Assembly: GCF_017352095.1 (NCBI RefSeq)
Contig: NZ_CP071463.1
Span: 1,674,001-1,738,000, forward strand
Length of the DNA: 64,000 nucleotides
Source: Natrinema longum
GTDB lineage: Archaea; Halobacteriota; Halobacteria; Halobacteriales; Natrialbaceae
Direction of reading: 5' to 3'
In this document: positions 45,023 through 50,495 of the stretch, piece by piece
How positions within the stretch are numbered: position 1 is the stretch's first letter
How the letters are laid out: every line of letters starts with the position of its first letter
Notes under the pieces: model-generated
What the model saw: only the letters and a program-made list of their open reading frames with translations
The model's database searches: none
What the model was told of the DNA's origin: nothing
Translations under genes and position numbers: made by a program

Positions 45023-45898
45023 TCAGAGGTCCGTCCGCCGAAACCGGACGTAGCCGATCGCGACGGGGACGACCAGCCAGACCAGTAAGACGACGATGCC
45101 GAACCAGTCCTGAAGGTAGAACGGCGCGTCACCCGGGTAGCGCTCGGCGGGGGTCATCCCGTATGCCTCCATCGACTGGAGGCCGTACTGAAACTGGAAC
45201 GGATACAGCGATCCCTCGACGAGGCTACTGGCAAGGTTCGTGTAGGCGAAGATCGGGTTGAACTGGTCGAGGACCAGGTACCACGTCTCGGCCTCGACCG
45301 GCGGCCCCTCGTCGTAGAGGAGGTAGTAGGGGCCGGCGGTGAGCAGCTCCCACAGCGCGACGAACACCATATAGAAGCCGACGACGATGGCCATCGACTT
45401 GCCGCGGGTAGAGACGGCGGCGGAAACGCCGACGGCCAGACCGACGAACGTGGTCCCGAAGAGCAGCGATACGGCCCCAAAGCCCAGCCAGTCGACGAAC
45501 GGCACCGCGCCGAAGAGAACGGCTCCGAGGACCAGCGAGACGAGGAAGGCGAGCGCGATTGCGAGTCCGACGACGCCCATGCGACCGACTAGCTTTCCGA
45601 AGACGACGTCCGTCCGGTTGGGCGGGAGTCCCAACAGGAGTTTGATACTCCCCGAGCGACGCTCGCCGACGACGGCCATGTAACCGGCGATCAGTGCTGC
45701 GATCGGGATGATCACCTGCAACGGCGTTCCGAGGAAGCTCAGTGCCTCGGCCGCAGTCACGTCGTCGACCGTGTACCAGATCCCGACGTAGCCGACCACG
45801 ACGAGACCGACGAGCAACCCGATCAGCGACCAGAGGAGTTTCGAGCGGCCGGCGTCGTCGAACTCCTTTCGCGCGACAGTGGCAACGTGGCCGGTCAT
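45023..45898 (-). CDS. ABC-2-type exporter permease
   Basis: A 291-residue membrane protein with six helices: one near the N-terminus (LLWSLIGLLVGLVVVGYVG), five more clustered from residue 60, and a last helix (FGIVVLLVWLVVPVAIGYV). The N-terminus RKEFDDAGRSKLLW and the block GERRSGSIKLLLGLPPNRTDVVFGKLVGR are typical of NosY/copper ABC-2 permeases. Its start (ATG 45898) overlaps the ATPase stop by four bases, so both make one exporter. The exported substrate is unknown; an HTH regulator and Sensor operon start on the opposite strand 99 bases beyond the ATPase. Confidence 0.9.
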   Translation of the reverse strand: MTGHVATVARKEFDDAGRSKLLWSLIGLLVGLVVVGYVGIWYTVDDVTAAEALSFLGTPLQVIIPIAALIAGYMAVVGERRSGSIKLLLGLPPNRTDVVFGKLVGRMGVVGLAIALAFLVSLVLGAVLFGAVPFVDWLGFGAVSLLFGTTFVGLAVGVSAAVSTRGKSMAIVVGFYMVFVALWELLTAGPYYLLYDEGPPVEAETWYLVLDQFNPIFAYTNLASSLVEGSLYPFQFQYGLQSMEAYGMTPAERYPGDAPFYLQDWFGIVVLLVWLVVPVAIGYVRFRRTDL

Positions 45899-46887
45899 TG
45901 CGCCACCCCCGGTTCCGTCCCCGTGGGGCCCCCATCGCTCGTTCCGGACTCCGCCGCCTCCCCCGTTCGCTCGCTTTCGCCCCCGTTCGTCAAGGCGGTA
46001 AACAGCGACTCGAGCGAGACCTCCTCGATCCGCACGTCCCGAATCGTCGCGCCACCGTCGTCGAGTTGGGTGACGGCGCTCGCCTTCGCCGCCGGATCGG
46101 CGACCGATAGTTCGAGGGTTCGCCCGGACGCCGTCGTGTCGACGACCCCTTCAAGGTCGGTGACGAGATCGCGAGCCCACTCGGCGGGGTCCGCGAGGGT
46201 GAGCGTCATCGTCGCGCCGCCGCCCAGCTCCTCGCGGAGCCCGTCGATCGTATCGACGGCGACGAGTTCGCCGTCGTCCAACACGCCGATCCGATCACAG
46301 ACCGCCTCGACGTGTTCCAAGATGTGACTCGAGAAGAAGACGGTCGTGCCGCGTTCGGCCTCGCTGCGAACGAGGTCCTGCATCTCGCGGATCCCGTGGG
46401 GATCGAGCCCGGTCGAAGGCTCGTCCATGATCAGCAGGTCGGGATCGCCGACCAGCGCCACACCGGTCGCGAGCCGCTGGCGCATTCCCTTGGAGTAGTC
46501 GCCGGCCGGCCGCGCGCCGTCCTCGGCCGAAAGTCCGACGCGTCGCAGGATCTCGTCGGGGTCGTCGTCGGCGTCTTTCGTCTTGCTGGCGAACTCGATG
46601 TGCCGTCGGCCCGACAGGCGCGGGTAGACGTCGAACCCCTCCGGGAGGACGCCGACCCGGGGACTGATCGCGTCGGCGTCCGCCTGAGCGTCGTAGCCCA
46701 GTACCGTCGCCGATCCAGCCGTCGGGCGGGTGAGATCGAGTAGCATGTTGATCGTCGTCGACTTCCCGGCCCCGTTGGGACCCAGAAAGCCAAACACCTC
46801 GCCGTCGTCGACGGTCAGATCGAGATCGTCGACGGCCGTGAGGGAGCCGTACTCCTTGGTCAAGCCGCTCGTCTCGATCGCGGTCAT
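45895..46887 (-). CDS. ABC transporter ATP-binding protein
   Basis: A 330-residue nucleotide-binding subunit for the permease behind it. Walker A LGPNGAGKSTTINMLL, Q-loop in VGVLPEGFDVYPRLSGRRHIEF, signature YSKGMRQRLATG, Walker B LLIMDEPSTGLDPHG and H-loop FFSSHILEHV are all intact. The last 100 residues are the usual regulatory extension ending in an acidic tail (GESERTGEAAESGTSDGGPTG). Its start faces the HTH gene at 46987, leaving 99 bases for two promoters. Confidence 0.93.
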   Translation of the reverse strand: MTAIETSGLTKEYGSLTAVDDLDLTVDDGEVFGFLGPNGAGKSTTINMLLDLTRPTAGSATVLGYDAQADADAISPRVGVLPEGFDVYPRLSGRRHIEFASKTKDADDDPDEILRRVGLSAEDGARPAGDYSKGMRQRLATGVALVGDPDLLIMDEPSTGLDPHGIREMQDLVRSEAERGTTVFFSSHILEHVEAVCDRIGVLDDGELVAVDTIDGLREELGGGATMTLTLADPAEWARDLVTDLEGVVDTTASGRTLELSVADPAAKASAVTQLDDGGATIRDVRIEEVSLESLFTALTNGGESERTGEAAESGTSDGGPTGTEPGVAQ

Positions 46888-46955
46888 CTCGACGACCTAC
46901 CACAGCGGAAAGGATAACCACCAGCCACGATTTCACGCAGCGAAACTGTGGGTTC

Positions 46956-46963
46956 TTTTATAT
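46956..46963 (+). promoter_or_regulatory. TATA-like box of the HTH/Sensor operon
   Basis: TTTTATAT lies 24 bases before the ATG at 46987 and is the strongest AT box in the divergent interval. A leaderless start is implied. Confidence 0.55.
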
Positions 46964-46986
46964 CCTCCTGTCATACGAACGACCGA

Positions 46987-47328
46987 ATGCCCGACGATGA
47001 GGACCGAGAAGTGCTCGCCCTACTCGACGACGAGTATGCACGCCGTATCCTCATCGCCGCCAGTGAGGAACCCATGTCCGTCGAGCGACTCACCGAGTGC
47101 TGTGACGCCTCGCCACCGACGATCTACCGGCGGATCGACCGGCTCGCGGATCAGGGGTTCCTCGACGAATACCAGGAGCTCGATCCCGATGGACACCACT
47201 ACAAGACCTACAGCACGCGACTCGAGCGCGTGGCGATCGAGATCGCCGAGGGCTCGATGGAGATGGACGTGTACCGCCGCGACGAGGACCCCGCCGACCG
47301 GTTCACCAGACTGTTCGAGGACCTGTGA
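46987..47328 (+). CDS. Winged-helix (ArsR-like) transcriptional regulator
   Basis: A 113-residue DNA-binding protein: REVLALLDDEYARRILIAASEEPMSVERLTECCDASPPTIYRRIDRLADQGFLDEYQEL is a standard winged helix with the recognition helix in SPPTIYRRIDRL. The short C-terminal part (KTYSTRLERVAIEIAEGSMEMDVY) forms the dimer helix. CC in the HTH is common in this haloarchaeal group and need not bind metal. It is the first gene of an operon with two small membrane proteins and a Sensor-domain protein; its stop overlaps the next start (GTGA). Confidence 0.88.
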   Translation: MPDDEDREVLALLDDEYARRILIAASEEPMSVERLTECCDASPPTIYRRIDRLADQGFLDEYQELDPDGHHYKTYSTRLERVAIEIAEGSMEMDVYRRDEDPADRFTRLFEDL

Positions 47329-47657
47329 TCGACATGTTCGGACCACCACTGCAAACGGTCGAAAGCGGAGGCGGAACGACGACGGTCGCCGTCGCCGTCT
47401 TCCTCGGACAGGCTATCGCGTTCGTGATCGCGTGTTGGATCGCAAAGCGGTCCTACGACGGCTACCGGGACGTCCGCCGGACGCCCCTGCTGTGGCTCGC
47501 GCTCGGGATCACGCTGCTGGCCGCGGTCCCGACGGTCCTTCGGTTCCTGTTGCCGACGCTGCTCGGTGCGTCGTCGGTGACGACGACCGTCCTCGCGAGC
47601 GTCAGCGAGATCGCCGGCCTCACGGCGATCCTCTATACCGTCTACGGCCGTCCGTGA
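47325..47657 (+). CDS. Small three-helix membrane protein (DUF7521-like), first copy
   Basis: A 110-residue protein with three hydrophobic helices (VAVAVFLGQAIAFVIACWIAK, LWLALGITLLAAVPTVLRFLL and TTVLASVSEIAGLTAILYTVY), a basic loop after the first (RSYDGYRDVRRTP), and almost no soluble part. I recognise the layout as the haloarchaeal family often placed after an HTH regulator, named DUF7521 as far as I recall. GTG 47325 overlaps the regulator stop (GTGA) and has a GAGG at a workable distance; ATG 47334 is an alternative. Confidence 0.75.
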   Translation: MIDMFGPPLQTVESGGGTTTVAVAVFLGQAIAFVIACWIAKRSYDGYRDVRRTPLLWLALGITLLAAVPTVLRFLLPTLLGASSVTTTVLASVSEIAGLTAILYTVYGRP

Positions 47658-47700
47658 ACGGAATCGCCGCCGTTCGAGCCGACTCTCGGAGGTGGGAAGA

Positions 47701-48057
47701 GTGACCGTCGGTGTCGGTGCCCTCGGCGTCGGTTCGCTCCCCGTCCTCGAGGCCGCACCGACGGCCTTCGGGCTCGACGAGGAGACGACGATCTTCTTCG
47801 CCGGACTGGCCAGCGCCGCCCTCGGCACGGTCGTGGCGTGGACGGCCTATCGGGGCTACGCTCGCAACGACAGTCGGCCGATGCTGTTCCTGGCTATCGG
47901 CGTCGCGTTCCTGACGGCCGTCCCGTTCGTGCTCGCGTACGCGGTCGATCTGGTTGCGGACGTAACGGACGCGATCGTCCTGCTCGTCGTCACTGCTTGC
48001 CATCTGGTCGGACTCGTCGCGATCGTTCGCTCGTTCAGGAGGCCTGATTCAGCATGA
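47701..48057 (+). CDS. Small three-helix membrane protein (DUF7521-like), second copy
   Basis: A 118-residue paralogue of the preceding gene, again with three helices and the basic-aromatic loop after the first (TAYRGYARNDSRPMLFLAIG, against SYDGYRDVRRTPLLWLALG in copy one). The start is decided by GGAGGTG at 47688-47694, a near-perfect ribosome binding site six bases before GTG 47701; a GTG at 47692 lies inside that site. Its stop overlaps the Sensor-domain start by four bases (ATGA). Two copies in tandem may form a heteromeric membrane unit. Confidence 0.75.
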   Translation: MTVGVGALGVGSLPVLEAAPTAFGLDEETTIFFAGLASAALGTVVAWTAYRGYARNDSRPMLFLAIGVAFLTAVPFVLAYAVDLVADVTDAIVLLVVTACHLVGLVAIVRSFRRPDSA

Positions 48058-48917
48058 AATCCACACGGACGTCATCACCGCTTGCCGCAGGGAGAACCGC
48101 TCTCGACCGCCTTCGAGGCTGGCTTCGCTGGTTCGTCGGCGTCGTCGTTCGCAAACGGACCTACGCCAACGTCGCGTACCTCCTGCTCGCGTTTCCCCTC
48201 GGGATCGGCTACTTCACGGTCCTCGTGACCGGCATCGCGATCCCGGCTGGCCTCACGTTCGGGCTCGTCGACATGGCGAGGACGGAACCCGTCGCCTTGC
48301 TGATCGCCGGCATCCCCCTCCTACTGGTGCTGTTGTGTATCGGCATTCCGACCGTCCTGGTCGTCCTGTTCGCCTCGGTCGAGTTGACCGCCCTCGAGCG
48401 AGTCCTCGCCGATCGGTTGCTCGACACCGATATCCCGACGGCCGACCCGGCTCCGACGCTCCGCGAGCGGGTACGACGGCTCGTCTTCGATCGGGGGACG
48501 TGGAAAGGCGTCGGCTACCTGGGTAGCAAGTTCGTGCTCGGGTTGGCCACGTTTTTCCTCCTCGCGTTCGGGGTCACGTTCACGTTCGTGCTGGTCGCCG
48601 CGCCGCTTCACTACCGAAATCAACTGGTCGGTATTCACCTCGGCGGCCCGGTCGAGTTCGTCCCCGAACTCACGTACCAACACGCCGGCTGGGTCATCGA
48701 CGTCGTCTCTCCGGTCCCCCTCTCACTCGCCGAGGGCGAACTGATCTCGTTCTATATCGATTCGCTCGGGGAAGCGCTGGCCCTCTCGGCGATCGGCGTG
48801 CTAGTCGGACTCGTCGTTCTCCACCTGTTCAACGCTGTCGCGTGGCTGTTCGCGCGGTACACGGAGCTGTTGCTTCGGGACACCCAACCGTCGATATTCA
48901 GCGAACCGCCGGAATAG
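48054..48917 (+). CDS. Sensor-domain (PF13796-like) membrane protein
   Basis: A 287-residue protein with a short polar N-terminus, paired helices (NVAYLLLAFPLGIGYFTVLVTGI and ALLIAGIPLLLVLLCIGIPTVLVVLFASVE), a soluble connector (ADRLLDTDIPTADPAPTLRERVRRLVFDRGTW), then a second pair after residue 155 and a last helix near 250. WKGVGYLGSKFVLGLATFFLL is the hallmark of the putative-sensor domain. In actinobacteria this domain heads histidine kinases; here it stands alone, without kinase or DNA-binding part, and depends on the HTH protein of its operon. AGGAGG at 48037-48042 supports the start. Confidence 0.85.
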   Translation: MKSTRTSSPLAAGRTALDRLRGWLRWFVGVVVRKRTYANVAYLLLAFPLGIGYFTVLVTGIAIPAGLTFGLVDMARTEPVALLIAGIPLLLVLLCIGIPTVLVVLFASVELTALERVLADRLLDTDIPTADPAPTLRERVRRLVFDRGTWKGVGYLGSKFVLGLATFFLLAFGVTFTFVLVAAPLHYRNQLVGIHLGGPVEFVPELTYQHAGWVIDVVSPVPLSLAEGELISFYIDSLGEALALSAIGVLVGLVVLHLFNAVAWLFARYTELLLRDTQPSIFSEPPE

Positions 48918-49247: not shown

Positions 49248-50495
49248 ATGAGTCAACAGAACCTCGAGTCGCTCGACGTCGGGGCGATCCGGGAGGAGTT
49301 CCCGATCCTCCAGCGGGAGTTCAACGACGAGCAACTCGTCTACCTCGACAACGCGGCGACGACCCAGACGCCCGATCCGGTCATCGACGCGATGAGCGAC
49401 TACTATCGGGAGTACAACGCCAACGTCCATCGGGGCATCCACCACCTGAGCCAGGAAGCCTCGATCGCCTACGAGGAGGCCCACGACCGCGTCGCCGAAT
49501 TCATCGGCGCGAGCGGCGGCCGCGAGGAGATCGTCTTCACCAAGAACACGACCGAGGCCGAGAACCTGGTCGCCTACTCGTGGGGGCTCAACGAGCTCGG
49601 CCCCGGCGACGAGATCGTCCTCACCGAGATGGAACACCACGCCTCGCTGGTCACCTGGCAACAGATCGGCAAACGCACGGGAGCCGACGTGAAATACATC
49701 CGGATCGACGAGGACGGCCGCCTCGACATGGACCACGCGCGAGAGCTCGTCACCGACGACACCGCGATGGTCTCGGCGGTCCACGTCTCGAACACGCTCG
49801 GCACCGTCAACCCCGTTTCCGACCTCGTCGAGATCGCCCACGACCACGACGCCCTGGCCTTCATCGACGGCGCACAGGCCGTCCCCAACCGGCCCGTCGA
49901 CCTCGAGGCCATCGACGCCGACTTCTACGCCTTCTCGGGCCACAAGATGGCCGGCCCCACCGGAATCGGGGCACTCTACGGCAAGAAGGAGATCCTCGAG
50001 GAGATGCAGCCCTACCTCTACGGCGGCGACATGATCACGAAGGTCACCTTCGAGGAGTCGACCTGGAACGAACTCCCCTGGAAGTTCGAGGCCGGGACGC
50101 CCCAGATCGCCGAAGCCGTCGGCCTCGTCGCCGCGATCGACTACCTCGAGGAGATCGGTATGGAACGCATCGAAGCCCACGAGGAGGAGATGGCCCGCTA
50201 CGCCTACGAGCAATTGGCCGCCGAAGACGACGTCGAGATCTACGGCCCCGAGCCCGGGCCGGAACGGGGCGGGCTGGTCGGCTTCAACCTCGAGGGCGTC
50301 CACGCCCACGACCTCGCCTCGATCATGAACGATCACGCGGTCGCGATCCGCGCCGGCGACCACTGCACCCAGCCACTCCACGACAAACTCGGCGTGGCGG
50401 CGTCCGCTCGAGCCTCCTTCTACGTCTACAACACGAAAGCGGAGGTCGACAAACTGGTCGACGCCATCGATGACGCGCGTCAGCTCTTTAGCTGA
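49248..50495 (+). CDS. sufS: Cysteine desulfurase SufS
   Basis: A 415-residue PLP enzyme that takes sulfur from cysteine for iron-sulfur cluster assembly. The PLP lysine is K233 in SGHKMAGPTGIGALYG and the persulfide cysteine is C373 in AGDHCTQPLHDKLGV; NVHRGIHHLS and KNTTEAENLVAYSWG are group II (SufS) markers. Haloarchaea usually keep sufBCD elsewhere, and none is adjacent here. The coding end is odd: the last codons (RQLFS, stop) form the left arm of a strong hairpin, and that hairpin is repeated 200 bases downstream. Confidence 0.96.
   Translation: MSQQNLESLDVGAIREEFPILQREFNDEQLVYLDNAATTQTPDPVIDAMSDYYREYNANVHRGIHHLSQEASIAYEEAHDRVAEFIGASGGREEIVFTKNTTEAENLVAYSWGLNELGPGDEIVLTEMEHHASLVTWQQIGKRTGADVKYIRIDEDGRLDMDHARELVTDDTAMVSAVHVSNTLGTVNPVSDLVEIAHDHDALAFIDGAQAVPNRPVDLEAIDADFYAFSGHKMAGPTGIGALYGKKEILEEMQPYLYGGDMITKVTFEESTWNELPWKFEAGTPQIAEAVGLVAAIDYLEEIGMERIEAHEEEMARYAYEQLAAEDDVEIYGPEPGPERGGLVGFNLEGVHAHDLASIMNDHAVAIRAGDHCTQPLHDKLGVAASARASFYVYNTKAEVDKLVDAIDDARQLFS

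Follow-up and report, generated by a model that had tools for sequence, protein, structure and literature searches.

A locus in the haloarchaeon Natrinema longum raises the question of how a membrane sensor protein with no kinase beside it might control transcription. The window analyzed here is a 64,000-nucleotide stretch of contig NZ_CP071463.1 (positions 1,674,001 to 1,738,000, forward strand). In it, an operon encodes a winged-helix regulator (HTH), two small membrane proteins (D1 and D2), and a stand-alone Sensor-domain protein, and an ABC-2 exporter is encoded divergently. Little is understood of how haloarchaea detect damage to their membrane and surface, and PSP components are distributed patchily among archaea (PMC9239133). 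A first-pass annotation of the window suggested that the membrane proteins pass a signal directly to the regulator.

Locus organization

The divergent exporter and the operon HTH, D1, D2, and Sensor were read in the window as first annotated, and gene coordinates and Pfam scores confirm both the four-gene operon and its distance from the exporter on the other strand (Table 1). The HTH start and the minus-strand ATPase start (46887) are separated by 99 bases. HTH and D1 overlap by 4 bases, as do D2 and Sensor. D1 and D2 are separated by a 43-base gap containing a strong ribosome binding site (GGAGGTG). The annotation of a Sensor without a kinase also holds: a domain search at the locus found no kinase in the operon or its immediate neighbors, and neither the histidine kinase nor the receiver domain of a two-component system is encoded there. 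Beyond the set, the next genes code for an aldehyde dehydrogenase and for a cysteine-desulfurase-type aminotransferase of class V. In Natrinema, Natribaculum, Halostella, and one further genome (G140), the aminotransferase gene (window 49248-50495) is a conserved neighbor downstream of the Sensor operon.

Table 1. Features of the exporter and Sensor operon, in window coordinates
Feature	Position	Strand	Basis
ABC-2 permease of the exporter	45023..45898	-	ABC2_membrane_2, 161 bits; follows the ATPase gene
ABC ATPase of the exporter, DrrA-like	45895..46887	-	ABC_tran, 88 bits; drrA is the best NCBIfam match, below cut-off
Exporter promoter, TATA-like box (minus-strand GGTTATCC)	46912..46919	-	Sequence; TA conserved in Natrinema alignment
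Predicted operator, inverted repeat CCACGATTTC-N7-GAAACTGTGG	46925..46951	.	Conserved in Natrinema
TATA box of the operon promoter, TTTTATATC	46956..46964	+	Sequence and Natrinema alignment
Winged-helix regulator (HTH_20)	46987..47328	+	Pfam, 31.2 bits, over cut-off; alignment
HTH C-terminal tail motif DRFTRLF, proposed DUF7521 docking site	47296..47316	+	Motif tracks pairing
D1, small membrane protein, DUF7521-like, three predicted helices	47325..47657	+	26.8 bits vs cut-off 27; hydropathy
Ribosome binding site GGAGGTG ahead of D2	47688..47694	+	Sequence
D2, small membrane protein, DUF7521, GTG start	47701..48057	+	41.2 bits vs cut-off 27
Stand-alone Sensor-domain membrane protein (PF13796)	48054..48917	+	101.9 bits vs cut-off 28.2

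The HTH matches HTH_20 over cut-off (31.2 bits) and scores 16.6 bits against PadR (PF03551, cut-off 27). HTH_20 is its only match over cut-off, and it is not of the GntR family expected of a YtrA-type regulator. A sequence search of the PDB returned only generic archaeal ArsR-like regulators. By hydropathy, D1 has three membrane segments, and D2 has three as well as a weak fourth at its N-terminus. D1 falls just under the cut-off for DUF7521 (PF24365), and its family assignment is backed by relatives and by a D1-D2 fusion. The predicted model of D2 (pLDDT 65) is too weak for fold search or comparison.

The Sensor is 97% identical to that of N. ejinorense. Its AlphaFold model (pLDDT 88.6) has long membrane helices. 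No PDB relative of the model was found by Foldseek, VIA-align gave low Z scores only, and a sequence search of the PDB found no relative. Bacterial PF13796 relatives adjoin LiaF-TM proteins (in Chloroflexi) and response regulators, and certain of them are longer reading frames with kinase neighbors or domains.

Pairing of DUF7521 with regulators

DUF7521 and Sensor were searched for in 145 haloarchaeal genomes, and DUF7521 was found in 144. In 40 DUF7521 loci sampled irrespective of Sensors, an HTH of the same subfamily is encoded directly upstream in 33. Matches outside Halobacteria are weaker; of six upstream genes tested by Pfam in the phylum's other classes, five encode an Lrp/AsnC regulator and one a winged-helix protein. 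These DUF7521-like genes overlap or follow the Lrp/AsnC genes, which makes Lrp/AsnC a second type of regulator sharing this membrane partner. Since regulators of more than one type pair with DUF7521, the family travels with DNA-binding regulators, and the deeper conserved unit is a regulator plus DUF7521. With an HTH upstream in haloarchaea and Lrp/AsnC elsewhere, DUF7521 probably acts as a membrane partner to the regulator. A full-text search across 5.39 million papers returned no mention of DUF7521.

Salinarchaeum laminariae encodes D1 and D2 as one 235-residue ORF with two DUF7521 domains (L182:5164-5868). This single example hints that D1 and D2 function as a pair. The fusion seems to have an additional linker helix, which would leave both DUF7521 halves equally oriented. 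Fusions of HTH to DUF7521 were also sought and none were found.

The regulators carry a distinctive C-terminal tail. In the alignment, HTHs of the four-gene operon have the near-invariant ending ADRFTRLYEG, and those paired with a single DUF7521 end in ADERLAELWSEV. The tail pattern was fixed as [DE][RTQK][FLIV][AT]x[LMI][WYF]. Across five whole genomes, it is present in 18 of 26 DUF7521-paired HTH relatives versus 1 of 15 unpaired ones (p=1e-4), and coordinates place a DUF7521 gene after the lone "unpaired" carrier. In the joint set, the strict motif is present in 93/113 paired and 0/13 unpaired HTHs. On the tree, tail and pairing change together, in two independent pairs on starred branches and never in the opposite direction, with no significance. 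Because supported independent changes are few, the link is suggestive rather than proof. The distribution suggests that the tail is a docking element for DUF7521, and it is offered as a candidate site.

Operator and promoters

The predicted operator (46925–46951; consensus CCACRGTTTC-N7-GAAACYGTGG) lies between the TATA boxes of the exporter and the operon, with its arms ending 4-5 bases from each. The HTH start codon follows the operon TATA box by approximately 23-31 bases, a spacing consistent with a leaderless transcript. Among 29 Natrinema genomes, every one that yielded the junction of HTH and exporter carries the repeat there. Its core, GTTTC-N7-GAAAC, is found at the same distance before HTH, and always with a spacer of 7, in Natribaculum and Halostella as well as in three other genomes. 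The core is present in 11 of 113 regions upstream of HTH genes (0.06 expected from shuffles). From the position of the operator against the two TATA boxes, both promoters are predicted to be repressed.

The N. longum genome has 11 sites of the core, including IclR and other promoters. Some lie immediately upstream of IclR regulator genes and one at a divergent HTH_20/CopA-type ATPase promoter. The core seems to be common to several winged-helix regulators and was dropped as a regulon mark; the extended repeat alone was used because the core is not specific. The extended repeat is also found before a beta-helix membrane-protein gene and a CPBP protease gene in the same genome. The beta-helix protein (genome 1217330-1218430) is predicted to be secreted, has about four membrane helices, and matches no Pfam family at E<=0.001. 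Its operator copy is conserved in 6 of the 29 Natrinema genomes, decayed in two that lack the operon, and absent in the rest. With the site missing from most operon-bearing Natrinema, a genus-wide regulon at this gene was rejected. The CPBP/Rce1-like membrane protease gene has a copy with 3 mismatches just upstream (site 2912849).

Proposed mechanism

What has been computed is the operon with its conservation, the pairing of regulators with DUF7521, the motif in the HTH tail, the fusion of D1 to D2, and the operator-like repeat. We give an even chance to a reading in which these parts form a membrane-coupled, kinase-free transcription switch that responds to envelope disturbance. An HTH dimer is predicted to bind the inverted repeat abutting both TATA boxes, and when bound would repress its own operon and the divergent exporter. 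D1 and D2 may form a membrane heterodimer that offers a cytoplasmic loop and C-terminus to the HTH tail. The tail would dock on DUF7521, which would hold or release the HTH. The Sensor, joined in other genera by a Toastrack lipoprotein, may convey a disturbance of the membrane or surface to the paired DUF7521 proteins, with the signal and its direction both conjectural. The pair would then alter or sequester the HTH, opening the operon and exporter.

The envelope theme is drawn from the Toastrack proteins, from the bacterial Sensor relatives near LiaF-type proteins and response regulators, from the HAAS-PadR-Toastrack proposal, and from Listeria LltR. The direct signal from membrane protein to regulator that was first suggested gains from the class-wide HTH-DUF7521 pairing, the tail that tracks it, and the Lrp/AsnC pairing elsewhere; the coupling itself is still a proposal.

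The main alternative is that the HTH is a simple autorepressor. It would sense a cytoplasmic ligand or titrate itself, and D1, D2, Sensor, and the exporter would be regulated membrane protectors or modifiers that send it no signal, much as for YtrA. Sulfolobus acidocaldarius YtrA, whose operon also encodes a membrane protein, is an autorepressor with a regulon of two targets (PMC6746942), and Listeria LltR represses its own DUF1700-DUF4097 operon (PMC6624303). The predicted operator at the operon's own promoter fits autorepression as well as it fits the switch. However, autorepression leaves unexplained why nearly every DUF7521 gene follows a regulator gene, with two regulator types, and why HTHs have the tail motif when paired with DUF7521 and lack it when unpaired. 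It is weaker than the switch on pairing and tail, and we regard it as possible at fairly low probability.

If the switch is real, nearly every haloarchaeon has at least one, and often several, in which a membrane protein directly controls a DNA-binding protein, and DUF7521 gains a function. The operator, the docking tail, and the natural fusion of the partner pair make the switch directly testable in a genetically tractable group.

Conservation of the gene set

Sensor was found in 87 of the 145 genomes, and the regions around Sensors were searched with profiles grown from the window's proteins. HTH, DUF7521, and Sensor are encoded together at 40 of 86 haloarchaeal Sensor loci in many families, where random placement would give about 1% of Sensor loci; related genomes in these counts are not independent of each other. 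Two DUF7521 genes are present at 35 of the 40 loci and one at the others. A scan of 84,980 genomes also found the layout in Halorussus, Natronococcus, Halorubrum, Halobellus, Halorientalis, and others. The position of the Sensor varies: it is downstream in the operon, divergent from HTH, or both. In a tree of 106 Sensors, the operon, divergent, and lone types fall in separate clades. The window's clade (n=10; Natrinema, Natribaculum, Halostella, and one more) has HTH-D1-D2-Sensor without exception. The remaining 46 of the 86 loci, about half, have no adjacent HTH-DUF7521, so the Sensor is able to work without them.

Ten of the 40 HTH-DUF7521-Sensor loci, from four lineages (Natrinema and three others), carry the exporter. 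Among the surveyed loci, all 10 close relatives of the permease adjoin HTH-DUF7521-Sensor. Two Natrinema keep the exporter and operator after deletions in HTH-D1-D2-Sensor. In one (G095), HTH residue 91 is fused in frame to Sensor residue 221; in the other (G325), HTH, D1, and D2 are lost. From its occurrence at a quarter of loci in these lineages and its retention after the deletions, the exporter is a lineage-specific recruit to a conserved HTH-DUF7521-Sensor core. The co-occurrence across haloarchaea that the first-pass annotation made the test of its set thus stands for the core in many families and not for the exporter, which it had counted as a member.

A Toastrack (DUF4097) Tat lipoprotein is encoded at 18 of the 40 loci but at just 1 of the 46 Sensor loci that lack HTH-DUF7521 (p=1.7e-6). 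No locus of the 40 has both exporter and Toastrack (p=8e-4, kinship uncorrected), and no Toastrack was found in the window's genome.

The exporter also bears on a second alternative, in which the Natrinema locus is a resistance or self-immunity cassette that senses an antimicrobial, such as a halocin or other membrane-active compound, and expels it. The divergent exporter shares the predicted operator in Natrinema, drrA is the best NCBIfam match of its ATPase (below cut-off), and a repeat copy precedes the membrane protease gene. Export is not the general purpose of the set because the exporter is missing from 30 of 40 loci, and the two Natrinema with deletions retain exporter and operator without HTH-D1-D2-Sensor. 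A search of the halocin-immunity literature found nothing, and we consider this cassette unlikely. A loose cluster of genes with no common function would fit the half of Sensors found elsewhere without HTH-DUF7521, and is refuted, with hardly any probability left to it, by the overlapping genes, the conservation in many families, and the ten-Sensor subclade that is always in this operon.

Comparison with known systems

The first-pass annotation knew of no described function for the set; its layout has two precedents: the bacterial HAAS-PadR-Toastrack systems, proposed as a kinase-free alternative to two-component systems (PMC11237479), and the YtrA operon. As with YtrA, the regulator gene heads an operon that also encodes a membrane protein, a palindromic operator and autorepression are predicted here from the operator-like repeat, and the regulon would be small with another membrane-protein locus. 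Unlike the HTH, YtrA is a GntR-family regulator with a different membrane protein and no Sensor, and there is no sign of signaling by its membrane protein.

The Lia systems of Firmicutes (LiaFSR/LiaIH) share the envelope-stress theme, Toastrack, and 4-TM proteins, and bacterial Sensor relatives are found near LiaF-TM; Lia differs in having a histidine kinase and response regulator, neither of which is at the Natrinema locus. Bacterial histidine and serine/threonine kinases carry the same PF13796 sensor domain family, whereas the Sensor here and most haloarchaeal copies examined are stand-alone proteins of about 210-290 residues.

HAAS (DUF1700)-PadR-Toastrack systems are the closest in layout: a stand-alone winged-helix regulator is encoded with a small helical or membrane partner, no kinase is at the locus, and Toastrack and multi-TM sensor proteins are nearby, with Toastrack at 18/40 of the related loci. 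The parts differ. The regulator is of the HTH_20 type rather than PadR, the partner is DUF7521 rather than DUF1700/HAAS, the sensor is PF13796, and the window's genome has an ABC-2 exporter in place of Toastrack. Searched at E<=0.1, D1, D2, and Sensor gave no match to DUF1700. With the regulator below the PadR cut-off and DUF1700 absent, the set is, by these domain assignments, not a member of HAAS-PadR, yet would work like it with non-homologous parts. It looks like an archaeal counterpart, made of other parts, of the kinase-free stress switch proposed in bacteria. More broadly, and at somewhat less than an even chance, DUF7521 may be the membrane half of an archaeal one-component signaling system, combined with two or more unrelated kinds of regulator (HTH_20-like in haloarchaea and Lrp/AsnC in related classes) and docked in haloarchaea by the C-terminal tail. 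Such a system, present in almost every haloarchaeon, would parallel HAAS-PadR by convergence, without homology.
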